Assembly (NCBI GenBank): GCA_903822545.1
Contig: CAIJPN010000124.1
Coordinates: 1 to 35,394 of the forward strand
From: an uncultured Anaerolineae bacterium
Lineage (GTDB): Bacteria > Chloroflexota > Anaerolineae > Anaerolineales > Villigracilaceae
Direction: 5' to 3'
DNA length: 35,394 nt
A model generated the notes under the pieces. It made no database searches. It saw only the letters and a program-made list of their open reading frames with translations, and was not told the DNA's origin. Shown here one piece after another: positions 12,138 to 34,856 of this stretch. Every line of letters starts with the position of its first letter. Within the stretch, counting starts at the first letter, position 1. The translations under genes were made by a program, and so were the position numbers.

Positions 12138-12863
12138 TCAGGCAGCTTCGATGTGAATTTCAGGGAAAAACTGGTGGACGGTGCCTTCGACCCAGCCATG
12201 CAGCGTGGATGGAGAAAGTGGGCAGCCCAGGCAGGCCCCACCCATCTTCACCTTCAAAGTTTCACCGTTGAAAGATACAAACTCAACCGACCCGCCATGG
12301 AATTGTTCGATGTAAGCACTGATGTTCTCAATCAAAGCGCGTAATTGCTGTTCTTTGGCACTGGCAACACTCATAACAGACTCTCCTTCTTGAATTGGGG
12401 CAGACTTTTTCTTGATACCTTCATTGAGCATCGCTTTGACCTGGGCCTCGGCATTACTGCGACGAAACGCCACTGCGCGGGCCAACCGGTCGAGCACCAC
12501 CCGTCCGGTTTGGGGGTGATCATTCATCAGGGTTTGCAAATCCTGGCCACAAATCACCAGCACTTCACAGGCCTGGGTGCAGATCAATGACGAGCTGTAG
12601 GTAGAATTCCCCAACACCGCCGACCAGCCGAATACACCGCCCGGTTGGATGCGGTTCAGGTTAATAGGCTCCCCATCATAAGGCTTGTAACGAATAACAA
12701 CTTCTCCACGAGTCAACAGGTAAAGACAGACGGCACGCTCCCCCTGTTCAAACAGAACAGCGCCTGTCGCGTAAGTGCGGGCAGAAAACATCGGCGCTAT
12801 GATTTTCAAATCTGCCGCGTCCAAATCCTTAAACAAGGGAAAATGCGTCAAAACATCTAACAT
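12138..12863 (-). CDS. Fusion of cyclic-nucleotide-binding domain and NifU C-terminal Fe-S scaffold
   Basis: The 241-residue protein has two parts. Residues 5-135 are a Crp/cNMP-binding beta-roll (PLFKDLDAADLKIIAPMF, LFEQGERAVCLYLLTRGEV, RIQPGGVFGWSAVLGNSTYS). The phosphate-binding cassette lacks the usual Glu and Arg (GW and SSS instead of GE and RxA), so cAMP binding is doubtful. Residues 172-238 are a NifU C-terminal domain: LRALIENISAYIEQFHGGSV then VKMGGACLGCPLSPSTL with Cys211 and Cys214, which in NifU/Nfu assemble a 4Fe-4S cluster. There is no DNA-binding domain. ATG 12863 fits the domain start; AGAGG directly abuts it, which is too close to serve as a Shine-Dalgarno sequence, and a TATCAT lies 7 bases upstream. 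The combination is unusual. Confidence 0.85.
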   Translation of the reverse strand: MLDVLTHFPLFKDLDAADLKIIAPMFSARTYATGAVLFEQGERAVCLYLLTRGEVVIRYKPYDGEPINLNRIQPGGVFGWSAVLGNSTYSSSLICTQACEVLVICGQDLQTLMNDHPQTGRVVLDRLARAVAFRRSNAEAQVKAMLNEGIKKKSAPIQEGESVMSVASAKEQQLRALIENISAYIEQFHGGSVEFVSFNGETLKVKMGGACLGCPLSPSTLHGWVEGTVHQFFPEIHIEAA

Positions 12864-12977
12864 CCTCTAGATGATAAAACTTTGCATGACCCTTTCATAG
12901 TGGCAAAAATCATATTCGAACTGACATTCTTCCCATTTATTATGACATTCCAGCGCAAACTGTCACAGGCAATCGGT

Positions 12978-12983
12978 TATACT
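12978..12983 (+). promoter_or_regulatory. Probable -10 box (TATACT) before the sigma-factor operon
   Basis: TATACT in GGTTATACTTTGGTG lies 39 bases before the ATG at 13023. No convincing -35 box was found, and no clear ECF-type GAAC/-10 pair, so autoregulation cannot be read from the sequence. Confidence 0.35.
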
Positions 12984-13022
12984 TTGGTGACAATTGCAAC
13001 TTTTCAGACCGGAAATCATCAA

Positions 13023-13616
13023 ATGAATGAAACTACGCAACACGAATTCTCTATTGAAGCCCTGCGCGCCGGAGATCGGGCCGAGTTTGCCCGTCTGGTT
13101 GAAGCCTACTCCAGCCCAATTTACCGGCTTGGCCTGAAAATGCTGGGAGACCAGCAAAATGCCGAAGATGTGCTGCAAAACACCTTCCTGAAGGCACTCC
13201 AGCACATCGGCAACTTCGAGGCCCGCTCCAGCCTGTCCACCTGGCTCTATCGCATCGCCGCCAACGAAGCCCTGATGCTGCTACGCAAAAAGCGGCCCGA
13301 AGTGCCCATCGATGAGCCTGCCAGCGAAGACGATGAGATTTCACTGCCCACCCAGTTCACAGACTGGGCCGACATGCCCGAAAATGAACTGCTTTCTGTG
13401 GAAGGTCGCCGGCACCTCAACGACGCCATCCACGCCCTGCCCGAAAAACTGCGAGTCGTCTTCCTGTTACGCGATATTGAAGGCCTGTCCATCCGGGAAA
13501 CCGCCGATGCGCTCAACCTGACCGAAACTGCCGTCAAAACCCGCCTGCTGCGCGCCCGGCTCAACCTGCGCGAACAACTCGGCCACTATTACGCCGAACG
13601 CATCACCTCGGAATAA
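13023..13616 (+). CDS. ECF-type RNA polymerase sigma factor
   Basis: The 197-residue protein has sigma region 2 (EFARLVEAYSSPIYRLGLKM, AEDVLQNTFLKAL, then SSLSTWLYRIAANEALMLLR) and region 4 (LPEKLRVVFLLRDIEGLSIR, then ALNLTETAVKTRLLRARLNL), with an acidic linker between. It lacks regions 1 and 3, as in RpoE/SigW-type ECF factors. ATG 13023 is preferred; upstream in-frame ATGs add only a non-domain tail. The next gene, 5 bases away, encodes a zinc anti-sigma factor, the usual partner. The downstream genes are all thiol-redox proteins, so the factor probably responds to disulfide or peroxide stress, like SigR-RsrA. Confidence 0.92.
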   Translation: MNETTQHEFSIEALRAGDRAEFARLVEAYSSPIYRLGLKMLGDQQNAEDVLQNTFLKALQHIGNFEARSSLSTWLYRIAANEALMLLRKKRPEVPIDEPASEDDEISLPTQFTDWADMPENELLSVEGRRHLNDAIHALPEKLRVVFLLRDIEGLSIRETADALNLTETAVKTRLLRARLNLREQLGHYYAERITSE

Positions 13617-13621
13617 AAACC

Positions 13622-13900
13622 ATGACCACCCACCACCATCACGAACACGATCACCAACTTTCCTGCAAAGAACTGCTCGGTTCCATCTCCGATTATGTCG
13701 AAGGTGAATTGAGCGATGATCTCTGCCAGGAAATCCGCCAGCACATGGCCGGATGCGAAAACTGCCGGGTCGTTTTCGACACTTTCAACAAAACCATCTA
13801 CCTGTACCATACCAGTGCCGGAGACACCAAAGCCCCGGTCGATGTCCAGAACCGGCTGTTCGAAAAACTCCAGCTGAATGATTACATCAAACGCAAATAA
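13622..13900 (+). CDS. Zinc-binding (ZAS-type) anti-sigma factor, soluble
   Basis: The 92-residue protein has a zf-HC2/ZAS motif, His41-x3-Cys45-x2-Cys48 in QHMAGCENC, preceded by the helix CKELLGSISDYVEGELSDD, which is the usual sigma-binding part. There is no membrane segment. In RsrA-like proteins oxidation of the zinc Cys pair releases the sigma factor, which fits the redox genes that follow. The N-terminus is His-rich (THHHHEHDHQ), possibly metal-binding. Cys15 and Cys35 are further candidates for disulfide formation. Confidence 0.88.
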   Translation: MTTHHHHEHDHQLSCKELLGSISDYVEGELSDDLCQEIRQHMAGCENCRVVFDTFNKTIYLYHTSAGDTKAPVDVQNRLFEKLQLNDYIKRK

Positions 13901-13946: not shown

Positions 13947-14144
13947 ATGCATCCAACCAAACAAGAACAAACCGCCCCTGAACCTGCCCCCCGTTTCGAA
14001 CAGATGGATCCCCCCCGCGAACCCATCCGGCGCGGCTCCACCTGCCCGCAATGCCGCCAGGCCAGGCTCGACTACAACGGCTTGCTCAACCTGGAATGCC
14101 CAGGCTGCGGTTACACCGAACACAACGGCGCAGGCTGCACCTGA
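13947..14144 (+). CDS. Small zinc-ribbon protein
   Basis: The 65-residue protein has a Pro-rich first half and a zinc ribbon with Cys33-x2-Cys36 (TCPQCRQ) and Cys51-x2-Cys54 (ECPGCGY), with a further Cys64. It ends in TGA TAA tandem stops. The Shine-Dalgarno sequence is weak. Its place between the anti-sigma factor and the selenoprotein suggests a redox or metal role within the same operon; no family function is known to me. Confidence 0.65.
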   Translation: MHPTKQEQTAPEPAPRFEQMDPPREPIRRGSTCPQCRQARLDYNGLLNLECPGCGYTEHNGAGCT

Positions 14145-14194: not shown

Positions 14195-14866
14195 ATGGAA
14201 AAACTCCTACCTCCCGATATCATCAAACAGATCCGAGAAGTTTTCGCCCAGGTAAAAAACCCGGTAGCCCTGCTCTTCTTCAGCTCCAAAAAGAACTGCG
14301 ACTACTGCGCCGAAATCCAGCAACTGCTCGAAGAACTCACCCAACTCTCTGACCTGCTGCACCTGTCCATCCACGACATCGATGCCGAAGCCGACCTGGC
14401 AGCGCTCTACAAAGTCACCGGTAAAGCCCCGGCACTGGTCATCGCCGCCCAGGAAGGCGACCAGATCACCGATTTTGGCATCCGCTACCTGGGAATTCCA
14501 TCGGGACACGAGTTCACCACCCTGATCCAAGACATCATCCTGGTCTCAGGCCGCGACTCAGGGCTTTCTGCACAGACCCGGCAGTATCTCAAATCCTTAA
14601 CCAAACCGCTGCACCTGCAAGTTTACGTAACCCCTACCTGACCGTACTGCCCGCGAGCCGTGTTGCTCGCCCACATGTTCGCCATGGAAAACCCGGAAAT
14701 GATCCTGGCTGAAGGCGTCGAAGCCATGGAATTTGCCGAACTTTCTGAAAAATATCACATCAGCGGCGTACCTGATACAATCATCAATGATGCCGCCGGA
14801 CGCGTTGTTGGCGCAGTGCCTGAGATCAACCTGCTTGCTGAAATCCAGCGCGCAATGAACAAATAA
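14195..14866 (+). CDS. Protein disulfide oxidoreductase selenoprotein (Sec at residue 149)
   Basis: The 223-residue product is read through TGA 14639-14641 as selenocysteine. It has the two tandem thioredoxin folds of the PDO/glutaredoxin-like family. The N-terminal fold has CDYC (Cys35, Cys38 after LFFSSKKN) and cis-Pro79 in GKAPALVI; the C-terminal fold has VYVTPT-Sec149-Pro-Tyr-Cys152 then PRAVLLAHMFA, and SGVPDTIIND with its cis-Pro. Family members have CPYC at this exact place. Length is normal for a PDO only if the TGA is read. Support comes from a SECIS-like hairpin at 14653-14670 and from selB in the same window. ATG 14195 has AAGGAA upstream. It is the fourth gene of the ECF operon. 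PDOs shuffle or reduce protein disulfides in the cytoplasm; Sec would speed attack on disulfides or peroxides. Pseudogene or sequencing error is the alternative, considered unlikely. Confidence 0.9.
14639..14670 (+). promoter_or_regulatory. Sec UGA codon and bacterial SECIS-like hairpin
   Basis: TGA 14639-14641 is followed by 11 bases and then the stem GCGAGC (14653-14658), loop CGTGTT (14659-14664) and GCTCGC (14665-14670). The loop begins 17 bases after the codon and has G as its second base; bacterial SECIS consensus asks for a small apical loop about 16-37 bases downstream with a G in its first two positions. The hairpin lies within coding sequence, as it must in bacteria. Confidence 0.8.
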
Positions 14867-14870
14867 ACCA

Positions 14871-14899
14871 GTAGGGCGAGAGTACTCATCTCGCCCTAC
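14871..14899. repeat. Intercistronic palindrome, REP-like
   Basis: GTAGGGCGAGA (14871-14881) and TCTCGCCCTAC (14889-14899) pair perfectly around a 7-base loop, in the 48-base gap between the selenoprotein and the TlpA-like gene. A short T run (CTTTTA) starts 5 bases later, so it may be a partial terminator or an mRNA-stabilising hairpin. It resembles small REP-type palindromes. Confidence 0.6.
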
Positions 14900-14914
14900 A
14901 TTCGCTTTTAACCC

Positions 14915-15496
14915 ATGAAATCACGCGAACAACTCAAAAAACAAGCTGAAAAGCAAACCGTCATCCTGGTGATTGTTGGCGCAGGGCTGATGTTGATTGC
15001 CATCGCGGCTTTTCTCTCGCTGCCACAGGCCACAGCCGCCGTGTCGGGGCAAAACCTGGGCATGATCCCGGCCCCCGTCAATTTCACCGCTCCCGATGTT
15101 TCCATCACCGACCTGGATGGCAACCCGGTTTCATTTGCTGACTATCGCGGCAAAGTCATCCTTTACAATGCCTGGGCCACCTGGTGTCCGCCTTGCAAAG
15201 AAGAAATGCCGATTTTGCAGGCATACTACAACGATCATAAAGACCAGGGCTTTGTGATCATCGCCGTGGAAGATGGCCAGCCGGTGGAAGAAGTGCGCAA
15301 CTTTGTAAAAGAGTACCAGCTCAGCTTCCCGGTCTGGCCCGACCCAAAATGGGTAGCCACCACTGCCTTCAAGATCGAAAACCTGCCCACTTCTTACATC
15401 ATTGACCGTGAGGGCGTGGCCCGCTTAACCTGGACGGGCGCAGTCACCCGGGATATGCTCGAAAAATACGTCACCCCGATTATCGAAGGAAATTAA
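14915..15496 (+). CDS. TlpA/ResA-like membrane-anchored thioredoxin
   Basis: The 193-residue protein has a charged N-terminus and one membrane anchor (about 15-35), then an extracytoplasmic thioredoxin fold: NFTAPDVSITDLDGNPVSF, then WATWCPPCKEEMPIL with Cys91 and Cys94, and the cis-Pro in ENLPTSYIID. This is the AhpC/TSA-Redoxin branch used by TlpA/ResA to reduce extracytoplasmic disulfides, for example in apocytochromes. The start lacks a clear Shine-Dalgarno sequence and a hairpin lies directly upstream, so translation may be coupled or regulated. It continues the redox operon; the OsmC gene starts one base after its stop. Confidence 0.88.
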   Translation: MKSREQLKKQAEKQTVILVIVGAGLMLIAIAAFLSLPQATAAVSGQNLGMIPAPVNFTAPDVSITDLDGNPVSFADYRGKVILYNAWATWCPPCKEEMPILQAYYNDHKDQGFVIIAVEDGQPVEEVRNFVKEYQLSFPVWPDPKWVATTAFKIENLPTSYIIDREGVARLTWTGAVTRDMLEKYVTPIIEGN

Positions 15497-15497
15497 A

Positions 15498-15965
15498 ATG
15501 GATGCAAAAGTCACCTGGAAAGATGGCCTGACCCTGAGCGGAAGTGCCAACAGCGGTTTCACCGTTCCATTAGGAACCGACCCTTCGGTGGGCGGCGCGA
15601 ATGATGGGTTTCGCCCGCTGGAACTGATGGCAATCTCGCTGGCTGGCTGCACCGCTATGGATGTAGTTTCCATCATCCGCAAGAAGAAACAGGATGTGAC
15701 CGCTTTTGAAGTTAAAGTTCATGCCGAGCAGCAAGCCGAGCACCCGCATGTTTTCACCAGCGCGGTTATCACCTACCAGGTAACAGGGCACAGCATCGAC
15801 GAAGCCGCAGTGGTGCGCGCCATCGAGCTTTCGGCCACGCGCTATTGCCCGGCACAGTCCATGCTGGCGAAGGCCTTTGCGATGAAGCTGGTGTATGAGC
15901 TTTACGAGGAAAAAGATGGGGCCAGTACACTCGTCAAAACGGGAGAATGGCGCCAGGGCGGTTAG
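15498..15965 (+). CDS. OsmC/Ohr-family peroxiredoxin-like protein
   Basis: The 155-residue protein has the two Cys of the OsmC/Ohr fold: Cys51 in ISLAGCTAMDVVSI and Cys117 in SATRYCPAQSML. OsmC and Ohr reduce organic or fatty hydroperoxides through these residues, often with lipoyl or dithiol reductants. It starts one base after the TlpA-like gene, with AAGGAA upstream, and ends the ECF redox operon. The selenoprotein or TlpA protein could supply electrons to it, which is inference. A paralogue lies at 19953-20357 on the other strand. Confidence 0.88.
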   Translation: MDAKVTWKDGLTLSGSANSGFTVPLGTDPSVGGANDGFRPLELMAISLAGCTAMDVVSIIRKKKQDVTAFEVKVHAEQQAEHPHVFTSAVITYQVTGHSIDEAAVVRAIELSATRYCPAQSMLAKAFAMKLVYELYEEKDGASTLVKTGEWRQGG

Positions 15966-19465: not shown

Positions 19466-19858
19466 TTATACCCGGATGGCGTCAGCCACCCGCCTGAGAC
19501 GCTGCCGGGCTTCTTCGGCCACAGGGTCGAGCGCCACATCCTGGATAAAGTTGGTCATAGAAAGCGGGTCGATAATGTTCACGACCGTGCCGCCATCCTG
19601 TTCATATACAATCACATTGCAGGGCAGCAGCAAGCCCACATCTGGCCGGGCTGTCAGCGCCTTGTGCGCCAGGGGCGGATTACACACCCCCAGTATGGAA
19701 TATTTGCGAAAATCAACATCCAGCTTCTTTTTCATTGTTTCCCTGACATCGATGCTGGTCAATACGCCAAAACCTTCAGTTTTAAGCGCTGCGGTTACTT
19801 TTTCAAGTGCTGCTTCATAGCTCAGGTTAAGTATGGTTTGAAATCCTAATTCGGACAT
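19466..19858 (-). CDS. DUF302 family protein
   Basis: The 130-residue protein matches DUF302: LSYEAALEKVTAALKTEGFG, then a DFRKYSILGVCNPPLAHKAL stretch and LLLPCNVIVYEQDGGTVVNI. DUF302 proteins often occur near sulfur-oxidation and thiol-redox genes and are thought to bind a small ligand; no activity is firmly known. Cys residues in VCNPP and LPCN are typical. ATG 19858 has GGGAGA upstream. It sits between the seven-haem cytochrome and an OsmC gene, with gaps of about 120 and 94 bases. Confidence 0.85.
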   Translation of the reverse strand: MSELGFQTILNLSYEAALEKVTAALKTEGFGVLTSIDVRETMKKKLDVDFRKYSILGVCNPPLAHKALTARPDVGLLLPCNVIVYEQDGGTVVNIIDPLSMTNFIQDVALDPVAEEARQRLRRVADAIRV

Positions 19859-19952
19859 GGCTGATCTCCCGGTTGGTGGTTTATTTTTATTTCGATGCAA
19901 AAACGGTAAAAAGTTCCCTGCTCTTCCATCCCTTCGACAAATATACCCGTCC

Positions 19953-20357
19953 TTATGCCACAATCTCAAAATCGGTGCTGATTTCTGCCGTTGCGCGGAT
20001 GGTAGCCGCAACCGAGCAATACTTCTCATGAGAAAGCTGGATGGCCTGCGCCACAGCCTTGTCGGTCAACCCCTGGCCAGACACTTTAAAATGCAGATGG
20101 ATTTTGCGAAACGTCCAGGGCGGATCGGCATCTTGCTCACCGCTGGAGCTAATCTCCAGCAGTGAAAGCGACATACGCTTTTTCTCCAGGATTTCGACCA
20201 CATCCACAGCTGTGCAGGATGCCAGCGCAAGCAGCAGCAACTCGGAGGGTTTAATACCAATCCCTTCATCCGGCGTGGAGAGTACGACCGAGTGCCGGGT
20301 GGAATCCACCCCGATAAATTGTTTCCCATCGATCCATTTTACAGTTGCGGTTCCCAT
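19953..20357 (-). CDS. OsmC-family protein (second copy)
   Basis: The 134-residue protein has the OsmC fold with Cys48 in LALASCTAVDVVEIL and Cys114 in SHEKYCSVAATI. It differs from the copy at 15498 in lacking the CPAQ after the second Cys and in its N-terminal strand (VKWIDGKQFIGVDSTRHSVV). Such proteins reduce organic peroxides or carry persulfide. AAGGAG precedes ATG 20357. It is part of the minus-strand thiol cluster with thioredoxin and DUF302. Confidence 0.87.
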   Translation of the reverse strand: MGTATVKWIDGKQFIGVDSTRHSVVLSTPDEGIGIKPSELLLLALASCTAVDVVEILEKKRMSLSLLEISSSGEQDADPPWTFRKIHLHFKVSGQGLTDKAVAQAIQLSHEKYCSVAATIRATAEISTDFEIVA

Positions 20358-20705: not shown

Positions 20706-21224
20706 TTAATTTCCGGTCATTTTCTTAATCTGGCCGGTCAAAGCCCGCCAGATCGGACAGCGGTCATAAATGGCGCTAAACATAAGGATGCCGCCCAACA
20801 CCAACAGGAACCAGTTGATGCTGCCAGCCGCCCAGCCGATTCCGGCAACGACAATCCCCGCCCCAAAGCGGATCAAACGATCCCCGCTCGATGGCCCGGC
20901 CGGAGCAGGTTCTACGCCCGTAGCCAGCGCATCAAAGAGGGTTTTCAACGTTGCGGCAGGTTTTGCGCCCACCTGGCGTTGTACTTCCTGGCCGTTTCGA
21001 TAAACGATCAGCGTGGGGATACCGTAGACTTTGAGATGTTGCAAAAGCTCCTGGTTTTCATCGGCATTGATTTGCCACAAGTCAACACGGCCAGCATATT
21101 CTTCGGCCAGTTTTTCCAGGATGGGCTTGACCATTTTGCACGGCCCACACCAGGGTGCCCACAGGTCTACAACCACCGGACGGGGGTTCTGTTTCAGTTT
21201 TTCAAAAAAAGTTTCAGGGGTCAT
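20706..21224 (-). CDS. Thioredoxin fused to a DUF2892 membrane tail
   Basis: The 172-residue protein begins with a classical thioredoxin (residues 1-108) with WAPWCGPC (Cys26, Cys29) and the cis-Pro in YGIPTLIVYRNG. A linker rich in Pro and Gly leads to two membrane segments (GAGIVVAGIGWAAGSINWFL and a second) ending IYDRCPIWRALTG, the DUF2892/YgaP-type inner-membrane module. In YgaP the same tail follows a rhodanese domain, so the module tethers sulfur or thiol enzymes to the membrane. ATG 21224 is favoured by GGTGA 4 bases upstream; ATG 21227 is adjacent. It is first in the minus-strand cluster. Confidence 0.85.
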   Translation of the reverse strand: MTPETFFEKLKQNPRPVVVDLWAPWCGPCKMVKPILEKLAEEYAGRVDLWQINADENQELLQHLKVYGIPTLIVYRNGQEVQRQVGAKPAATLKTLFDALATGVEPAPAGPSSGDRLIRFGAGIVVAGIGWAAGSINWFLLVLGGILMFSAIYDRCPIWRALTGQIKKMTGN

Positions 21225-21339
21225 CATTTCACCAGTCAAATTAGAGTAACAACTGAATTTTTGATGCTCTTATCCTGTTAAAGTTACATTTTCGAGGCTA
21301 TGAATTGTTTCCGCCAGGTGTAACAAATTTCGCACATTC

Positions 21340-32945: not shown

Positions 32946-34856
32946 ATGCGAGTCATCGGCACCGCCGGACATGTAGACCACGGCAAATCCACCCTCATCG
33001 CTGCGCTCACCGGCGTCCACCCCGACCGCCTGAAAGAAGAGCGCGAACGCGAAATGACCATCGACCTCGGCTTTGGCTGGCTCACACTGCCCAACGGCCA
33101 GGAAGTTGGCATTGTTGACGTTCCCGGCCACCGCGATTTCATCGAAAACATGCTGGCGGGCGTCAGCGGGCTGGATGCCGTGCTGCTCATCATCGCCGCT
33201 GACGAGGGCGTCATGCCCCAGACGCGCGAACACCTGGCCATCATCGACCTGCTGCAAGTCAAAACCGGCATCGTCGTCATCACCAAAATTGATATGGTGG
33301 AAGACAACGACTGGATTGACCTCGTTGAAACGGATATTCGCGCCGCCCTGGCAGGTACCGTTATGGAAAAAGCGCCATTCGCGCGAGTCTCGGCCAAAAC
33401 AGGCGCGGGCCTCGATGCGTTAACCCGCTCCCTCAGCCAGATGCTCGAAAACACCACCCCCCGGCTGGACCTCGCTCGACCGCGCCTGCCCATCGACCGA
33501 GTTTTCTCCATCGCCGGTTTTGGCACAGTCACCACTGGCACATTGCTCGACGGGCATTTCTCGGTGGGCGACGAAGTAGAAATCCTGCCATCGGCGCGCA
33601 AAGGCCGGGTGCGCGGCCTGCAAACCCACAAGAAAAAAGAAGAAACCGCCATCCCAGGCAGCCGCGTGGCAGTGAATATTTCTGGCGTGGCAGTGGAAGA
33701 GATTGCGCGCGGCGAGGTGATTGCCACGCCCGGCCATTACCAGCCCACGCGCCGCATCGACGCGCGTTTCCGGCTGCTAAAAGATATATCTGCGCCGCTC
33801 AAACATGCCACCGAAGTCAAAGTCTTCGCGGGCACAAGTGAAACCATCGCCAACCTGCGCATTCTCGGCGCGGATATGCTGAATCAGGGCGAAGAAGGCT
33901 GGATCCAGCTTGAGCTGCGCGACCCGCTGGTGGTGGTGCGCGGCGACCGGTATATTTTGCGGCGTCCCTCGCCGTCTGAAACATTAGGAGGAGGCCAGGT
34001 GGTCGATCCACATCCATCGAAACGGCACAAACGCTTCGACGCGGAAGTGCTCAACGGGTTGGAAGCGCTCTCGAAAGGCACGCCAGCCGAAGTGTTGTTC
34101 CAGGCGGCCATCGCTCACGGGGCGGGACTTGTCAAAGATGTGCTGGCAAAGGCCCGGCTGGAGTCCGAATCCGCGCAGGAGGCACTGGCAGCGTGTGTTG
34201 AGACCGGCTGGCTGATCCCGCTCGAGGGTGCAAATCTGCCCCTTTCCCCTGAAAACCTGGTGATTCCCGCCACGCAATATGTGTCTGTGAAAGAAACCGT
34301 ACTTTCAGCGCTCTCGGCCTACCATGCCACCTTCCCGCTGCGGCGCGGGATGCCGCGCGAGGAGTTGAAAAGCCGCCTGAAGCTGATGCCGCGCCTGTTC
34401 AACGCACTGGTGGCGCATTTTGCCGCGGGCGGCGAGCTGGTGGAAGGCCCAAAATGGGTCAACCTGCCCACGCATGTGGTTAAGTTTTCGGTTTTCCAAC
34501 AGCCCAAGGTGGATGCGCTGCTGAAGTTGTTCGCCGCCTCGCCGTATGCGCCGCCCTCGGTGAAGGATTGCCAGCACGAAGTCGGCGATGAGATTTACGC
34601 CGTGATGCTGGATGTGGGCGACCTGGTGCAGGTTTCACCCGAAGTGGTCTTTCGCAAGAGTGATTATGATGCGATGGTTGCCAAAACGCGCGCGTTTATC
34701 GCTGCCAAAGGCCAGGCCAGCGCCGCCGAAATCCGCGATTTGTTTGGCACCAGCCGCAAATACGCCCTGGCGCTGATGGAACACCTGGACGCGATTGGTG
34801 TGACGGTGCGGGATGGTGATTTTAGAAAGTTGAAAGTGGTAAGTGGCAAGGGGTAA
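32946..34856 (+). CDS. selB: Selenocysteine-specific translation elongation factor SelB
   Basis: The 636-residue protein has the EF-Tu-like GTPase part with GTAGHVDHGKST (G1), MTIDLGFGWL (switch I), DVPGHRDFI (G3) and TKIDMV (G4); the second beta-barrel has VFSIAGFGTVTTGTLLDG. SelB-type RGLQTHKKKEE and AVNISGVAVEEIARG follow. The C-terminal third contains the winged-helix repeats (LEALSKGTPAEVLFQAAIAH to ALMEHLDAIGVTVRDGDFRK) that bind the SECIS hairpin of the mRNA. It delivers Sec-tRNA to UGA codons. Length is normal. Its last codons, from Leu after FRK to the stop TAA, are made of heptamer repeats belonging to the next cassette. selA, selD and tRNA-Sec are not in the window. Confidence 0.97.
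   Translation: MRVIGTAGHVDHGKSTLIAALTGVHPDRLKEEREREMTIDLGFGWLTLPNGQEVGIVDVPGHRDFIENMLAGVSGLDAVLLIIAADEGVMPQTREHLAIIDLLQVKTGIVVITKIDMVEDNDWIDLVETDIRAALAGTVMEKAPFARVSAKTGAGLDALTRSLSQMLENTTPRLDLARPRLPIDRVFSIAGFGTVTTGTLLDGHFSVGDEVEILPSARKGRVRGLQTHKKKEETAIPGSRVAVNISGVAVEEIARGEVIATPGHYQPTRRIDARFRLLKDISAPLKHATEVKVFAGTSETIANLRILGADMLNQGEEGWIQLELRDPLVVVRGDRYILRRPSPSETLGGGQVVDPHPSKRHKRFDAEVLNGLEALSKGTPAEVLFQAAIAHGAGLVKDVLAKARLESESAQEALAACVETGWLIPLEGANLPLSPENLVIPATQYVSVKETVLSALSAYHATFPLRRGMPREELKSRLKLMPRLFNALVAHFAAGGELVEGPKWVNLPTHVVKFSVFQQPKVDALLKLFAASPYAPPSVKDCQHEVGDEIYAVMLDVGDLVQVSPEVVFRKSDYDAMVAKTRAFIAAKGQASAAEIRDLFGTSRKYALALMEHLDAIGVTVRDGDFRKLKVVSGKG

Follow-up and report, generated by a model that had tools for sequence, protein, structure and literature searches.

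The window, by which we mean the whole stretch of 35,394 nucleotides analysed here from an uncultured member of the Anaerolineae (Chloroflexota), carries a gene with one in-frame TGA that is predicted to encode a selenocysteine (Sec)-containing protein disulfide oxidoreductase (PDO). Genes for probable regulatory and thiol-redox proteins lie on either side of it, and the gene for the Sec-specific elongation factor SelB is found further downstream, as the preliminary description had noted. The features are:

12882-13616, + strand: ECF-type sigma factor, start codon uncertain (Pfam Sigma70_r2, r4_2 and Sigma70_ECF on 12945-13613)
13622-13900, + strand: zf-HC2 protein, probable anti-sigma factor, with an HxxxCxxC motif (HMAGCENC; PF13490, 42.2 bits)
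13947-14144, + strand: small zinc-ribbon-like protein of 65 amino acids with a CxxC...CxxC pattern, as read from the sequence
14195-14866, + strand: predicted Sec-containing PDO gene, 223 amino acids, Sec at residue 149, two thioredoxin-like domains
14297-14308, + strand: N-terminal redox motif C35-D-Y-C38, both Cys invariant in 30 aligned genes
14639-14650, + strand: predicted C-terminal redox motif U149-P-Y-C152, with TGA 14639-14641 as the Sec codon
14653-14670, + strand: predicted bacterial SECIS hairpin, arms GCGAGC (14653-14658) and GCTCGC (14665-14670), loop CGTGTT
14915-15496, + strand: ResA/TlpA-like thiol-disulfide oxidoreductase with a WCPPC motif, all Cys (128.6 bits with the ResA model, short of the cut-off of 170)
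15498-15965, + strand: OsmC-like protein (Pfam)
32946-34856, + strand: selB, Sec-specific elongation factor (TIGR00475, 355.8 bits, cut-off 242.25; SelB wing domains in Pfam)

The PDO gene extends from an ATG at 14195, directly preceded by what reads as an AGGAA-type ribosome-binding site, to a TAA at 14864-14866, and the TGA is its sole interruption. The read-through product matches TIGR02187, named PDO_seleno_TRX in the NCBIfam library, with 257.7 bits (cut-off 185) over residues 10-219 and model positions 5-208 of 209. It also aligns over its whole length (residues 14-218; E 9e-44) with the PDO of the hyperthermophilic archaeon Pyrococcus furiosus (1a8l). In this alignment residue 149, encoded by the TGA, stands opposite the first C of the C-terminal CPYC, exactly where it had been placed from the sequence, so that the archaeal protein has Cys at the position where the window protein is predicted to have Sec. 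The homology claimed beyond the TGA is borne out by both full-length matches; the frame is open there as described, and only the length given for it, 75 further codons, needs correction to 74 sense codons and a stop. Each of the two predicted thioredoxin folds would thus hold one redox motif, C35-x-x-C38 and U149-x-x-C152, with Sec replacing one Cys in the second. The genome has a single PDO match at E 0.001. The protein passes the general Pfam Glutaredoxin domain (34.2 versus 22.9 bits), and it is not a named single-domain glutaredoxin: five Grx models give 21.8-26.2 bits against cut-offs of 84-106.5, and two domains are present. Nor is it a full AhpF flavoprotein (TIGR03140), of which the first 197 model positions are matched with 78.3 bits, far below the cut-off of 502.9, and the flavin reductase part is lacking.

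The codon at this site was compared across relatives in several samples. A first set of 61 genomes (this genome and 60 relatives) contained a PDO gene in 35, of which 15 have one in-frame TGA and 20 have none. From a scan of named genomes, the best 80 of at least 571 confirmed PDO loci were kept; the two sets together (115 genes), minus 10 duplicates, give 105 distinct genes, including that of the window. Homologues at this codon had been proposed as a test of the Sec assignment, and in these 105 genes (which include the best 80 of at least 571 loci) the codon is TGA in 28 and TGC or TGT in 77, with no other codon observed. A class-wide draw of 249 genomes had PDO genes in 152, the best match having one TGA in 37 and being stop-free in 106; nine genomes, with matches of E 2.5e-20 or weaker, were left out. 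All 37 TGA genes (35 fetched for site inspection, plus those of G000 and G004) carry the TGA at the C-terminal UxxC site, and the seven of the 106 stop-free genes in which the site was inspected all have Cys. One of these 106 genomes, G199, has a second, partial match that carries a TGA. In total, 63 distinct TGA genes (28 and 35, no duplicates) were identified. None has another stop in the stretch read, and the C-terminal half beyond the site is conserved among relatives.

These counts bear on two other explanations. The gene could be a pseudogene, or the TGA a sequencing or assembly error, for all 77 Cys genes use TGC or TGT, each one base away from TGA, and one mutation or miscall would suffice. 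Against this, the same TGA occurs in the same codon in 28 of the 105 genes (the best 80 of at least 571 loci included) and in 35 of 35 class-wide genes, the reading frames have no further stop, the downstream half is conserved, and the hairpin described below tracks the TGA. Recurrence in 63 distinct genes excludes sequencing error, and we regard decay or error as highly improbable. The locus could also encode two proteins, a truncated PDO of 148 residues that ends at the TGA and, by reinitiation, a separate C-terminal fragment. A GTG at 14660 or an ATG at 14675 could open a short frame, and partial termination is normal at a Sec UGA. Yet the Cys relatives are single unbroken proteins of about the same length, a C-terminal fragment would miss the first residue of its own active site, and in TGA genes the synonymous sites of the hairpin codons are fixed, all of which makes a pair of proteins very unlikely.

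The hairpin that had been reported from the sequence (GCGAGC-CGTGTT-GCTCGC) is present at 14653-14670. It has six base pairs and begins 11 nt 3' of the TGA, a spacer equal to that of the Escherichia coli fdhF SECIS. A TGA followed by the hairpin pattern at this spacing has one match in the window when up to two mismatches are allowed (mean of 0.00 in 100 shuffles), and the exact pattern occurs once in the whole genome. The window hairpin agrees throughout with the bacterial SECIS model given in a figure legend of PMC13188914 and falls outside none of its ranges: the stem is 6 bp, the loop 6 nt, the distance from TGA to loop 17 nt and the folding energy -9.1 kcal/mol, and the loop has a G within its first two positions and G-U at positions 2-3. 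The folding energy of the window hairpin by itself is ordinary (z -0.80; 48 of 200 shuffles give an equal or better fold), and an Rfam scan of 14500-14900 with E up to 10 found no SECIS family, its two matches both scoring far under the respective gathering thresholds. The hairpin is beyond chance because its place is fixed, all six pairs arising there in 0.7% of 1000 synonymous recodings of the window stretch, and because its presence tracks the TGA across species.

The tracking was first evaluated at the fixed place in the 105-gene set, again with the best 80 of at least 571 loci included. Among the 28 TGA genes, six pairs form in 25, five in two and three in one, and this last gene (L097) has another 5-bp stem from the same start nucleotide. 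Among the 77 Cys genes, six pairs form in three, five in twelve and fewer in the rest. Standard pairs fill 97.0% of pair cells in the 28 TGA genes, a figure that drops to 16-55% if the partner is shifted by one to three columns, and both the percentage paired and the covariation score lie above all 500 shuffles. Changes on both sides of a pair are limited to one pair, G-C to A-U, in three of the 28 genes, which have Gln for Arg. This is no excess, given that 208 of 500 shuffles reach one such change and all 500 reach the number of further pair types, and a slide by +1 likewise yields three cells changed on both sides. Codon use points the same way as the pair counts: GCC, GTG and CTC are each found in 14 of the first 14 TGA genes, as is an Arg codon CGA or CGG, whereas in 16 Cys genes the GCC, GTG, CTC and Arg codons vary.

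With the class-wide genes added, a perfect stem (score of at least 5, start 10-12 nt past the codon) is found in 53 of 63 TGA genes and 7 of 78 Cys genes, the latter counted without L189, a duplicate of L101 (Fisher p 1e-20, kinship ignored). Six other offsets give 0-10 of the 63 and 0-23 of the 78. A strict reading of the published SECIS model accepts 45 of the 63 TGA genes (18 fail) and, among the 78 Cys genes, 11. Across the wider class, the stem in this position differs considerably in many TGA genes, with GGTC, GGT and CGTGC among the loops. At offset 10-12, a perfect stem is missing from ten of the 35 class-wide TGA genes (L156-L158, L161, L163-L165, L169, L171 and L177). The top candidate in eight of these (L156, L157, L161, L163-L165, L169 and L171) is a weak 5-bp stem whose GGT loop starts 22 nt past the TGA; its energy is -1.8 to -4.1 kcal/mol, and the pair at its base is A-U in some genes and G-C in others. 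Folding z-scores of 42-nt stretches part Sec from Cys genes weakly (means of -1.59 and -0.79).

Besides the selB of the window, a search for the remaining Sec genes, which had been suggested as a check, found all of them in this genome: a tRNA-SeC with anticodon tca, selA on another contig (530 bits) and selD (351 bits). The selD gene (L145, contig 17) appears to be a selenoprotein gene too, with an in-frame TGA in ...SSCAG-U-ASK.... The 15 TGA genomes among the 61 have SelB over the cut-off in 15, SelA in 13, SelD in 14 and a tRNA-Sec match of at least 53 bits in 14. One of them, G012 (88% complete), is without selA and without a full selD. In another, G037 (99% complete), whose Sec-PDO gene is L060, selA is in two pieces and there is no recognisable tRNA-Sec, the best candidate being read as tRNA-Ser. 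In G043 the tRNA-Sec match, at 53 bits the weakest of the 14, runs to the contig end and has no ARAGORN call. SelB is also over the cut-off in 17 of the 20 Cys genomes. In the class-wide draw, 35 of 37 TGA genomes have a strong match to selA (E of roughly 1e-60 or lower), versus 85 of 106 stop-free genomes (Fisher p 0.041, kinship ignored). Many genomes without a Sec-PDO thus keep Sec genes.

A genome-wide change of code, with TGA read as Trp or another residue, is exceedingly improbable, in line with the preliminary description, which had dismissed it on the use of TGA as a stop elsewhere. In a hand-compiled list of 36 window genes, TGA terminates 11, TAA 19 and TAG 6; relatives have Cys and not Trp at the site; tRNA-SeC (tca) and selA, selB and selD are in the genome; and nothing was found in favour of such a change. 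The TGA might instead be read through by a near-cognate tRNA or serve as a regulatory stop. This too we regard as most unlikely: exactly a redox Cys is replaced, a SECIS-type hairpin with a loop G follows, the full Sec machinery is present, and the contrast in strong selA matches, 35 of 37 versus 85 of 106 with kinship ignored, runs against it.

The TGA at a conserved Cys site, the hairpin that tracks it and the presence of tRNA-Sec, selA, selB and selD together argue for Sec decoding. Judged from sequence, 14195-14866 is almost certainly one gene for a Sec-containing PDO, its UGA decoded by SelB by way of the hairpin and its C-terminal redox pair being U-P-Y-C. This reading builds on the observed gene structure, family, site conservation, hairpin and machinery, from which we infer Sec insertion, the enzymology and the partners. 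SelB would bind the mRNA hairpin at 14653-14670 and bring Sec-tRNA-Sec to the ribosome at UGA 14639-14641, after which translation would run on to the TAA at 14864. In the protein, the C-terminal redox pair would consist of Cys152 and Sec149, the latter presumably the faster nucleophile, and the N-terminal pair of Cys35 and Cys38. Electrons would most likely come from a thioredoxin reductase, and disulfides of cytoplasmic proteins would be reduced or exchanged.

The Sec form of TIGR02187 is already known. The family with UxxC is a listed selenoprotein family in PMC13188914, PMC9312934 and PMC1794560, where the Sec protein called 'homolog of AhpF N-terminal domain (Grx-like domain protein)', e.g. 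ABB15282.1, has the same TIGR02187 assignment and a UxxC-type site. The organisms named in PMC1794560, which has two such Sec sequences, are Carboxydothermus hydrogenoformans and Symbiobacterium thermophilum, whereas the gene here is from Anaerolineae (Chloroflexota) and is likened to them by family and motif. We found no report of a TIGR02187-family selenoprotein in Chloroflexota in the portions of the selenoprotein literature that we examined. The fresher part is the frequent alternation of Sec and Cys. As to function, PMC7465337 describes the C-terminal site of the Sulfolobus solfataricus PDO as central for thiol-transferase activity, and PMC7278568 reports that a PDO of Thermococcus reduces the redox regulator SurR. 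PDOs are said in PMC7465337 to occur exclusively in thermophiles; against this, PDO genes are found in Chloroflexota that are from lakes or groundwater according to their database records (for example L073, L068 and L074).

A careful tree of the 35 genes, built with the site masked, requires 11 Sec/Cys changes (9-11 in the bootstraps), and its starred branches force at least 5 of them. Shuffled labels require about the same number (mean 11.4), with 240 of 500 shuffles as low. A quick tree of the 105 genes, including the best 80 of at least 571 loci, gives 17 changes, at least 9 of them forced, versus a shuffled mean of 24.8 (0 of 500 as low), which indicates that the Sec/Cys trait is partly inherited. 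Weak inner branches (under 80) make up 14 of 32 on the first tree and 39 of 102 on the second. One Sec genome (G011) and one Cys genome (G032) belong to the same genus. A single gain followed by losses only would need 33 losses (23 without L060) versus 17 changes, and is thus not the simplest account.

The samples differ as to the direction of the switches. For the TIGR02187 family, PMC1794560 gives two Cys-to-Sec events and no Sec-to-Cys event. A rate model on the 105-gene tree yields 1.92 for Sec-to-Cys versus 0.25 for the reverse on this one tree (lnL -50.6 with two rates, -55.4 with one, -56.1 with losses only and -60.2 with gains only). One of the two search patterns of the named-locus scan, VFVTPTCP, matches Cys forms alone, so this sample leans to Cys. 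The 35 genes, which are without that bias, give 3.27 and 2.58, also on one tree (lnL -23.2, versus -23.4 with one rate). The larger, Cys-leaning sample therefore favours Sec-to-Cys, and the smaller has nearly equal rates. Recurrent loss of Sec was also considered through 'fossil' SECIS halves, and the case is weak: the CGA-GCC-GTG half occurs in two Cys genes (L061 and L066), with 0.57 expected. Three Cys-PDO genes that lie beside Sec genes on the tree (L013, L061 and L066) keep the SECIS 5' arm and may be relics, a count that is not significant.

Part of the hairpin may be supplied by the protein itself. In the 105-gene set (best 80 of at least 571 loci included), 67 of the 77 Cys genes form between three and five hairpin pairs out of six. 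When PYCPRAVLLA is recoded synonymously, all six pairs appear in 1.7% of trials; for the actual site peptides, taken from 40 of the 77 Cys proteins, the average is 1.2%, versus 0.27% elsewhere in the same 40. The codons of the peptide PRAVxLA after CPYC already provide part of a SECIS stem, so that a change of the Cys codon and a few others would flip the site. Tentatively, and as a possibility that we rate somewhat below even, the C-terminal site of Anaerolineae PDOs may flip between Sec and Cys in both directions and over short evolutionary distances, frequently where the genome retains its Sec genes, and with the help of this peptide.

The neighbourhood suggests a role. It was surveyed in 100 loci (20 plus the best 80 of at least 571; G035 and G048 are in both sets), some of which end within 4.5 kb, so that the counts are lower bounds. 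Relatives of the neighbours lie within 4.5 kb of the PDO gene in at least 66 loci for the sigma factor, 68 for zf-HC2, 63 for OsmC and 49 for TlpA. The zinc-ribbon-like protein at 13947-14144, which has no Pfam model above its own cut-off, has tblastn relatives in at least 38 of the 100. Order and strand are mostly as in the window, with the sigma pair inverted in some loci. Divergent from the sigma factor lies a fusion of cyclic-nucleotide-binding and NifU-like domains (12138-12863), a relative of which is near the PDO gene in at least 16 of the 100 loci. Other thiol-related proteins lie nearby at 15498-15965, 19466-20029, 19953-20357 and 20706-21239 (two OsmC-like proteins, a DUF302 protein and a thioredoxin that carries a YgaP-like membrane part), each of them with Cys. 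At the start of the window, positions 1-700 hold a long Thr/Pro-rich repeat stretch inside an open frame (1-1662).

The sigma factor and the zf-HC2 protein look like a redox-sensing sigma/anti-sigma pair. The neighbours (ECF sigma factor, zf-HC2, TlpA and OsmC) suggest that the PDO is probably part of a thiol-stress regulon, and perhaps the zf-HC2 protein is one of its substrates. As a bolder addition, we hypothesize that the probable redox-type anti-sigma factor encoded directly upstream could be reduced by the Sec form in a selenium-dependent way.

An annotation pipeline that treats TGA solely as a stop would split this gene in two, a trait that it shares with the 62 other genes fetched. If Sec-to-Cys steps do prove commoner, this redox family would be an exception to the rule that confines such losses mostly to FdhA and SelD. 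Within a single bacterial class, this one gene provides many Sec/Cys pairs of close relatives, which makes testable both the cost and benefit of selenium at a single redox site and how readily a SECIS is gained and decays.
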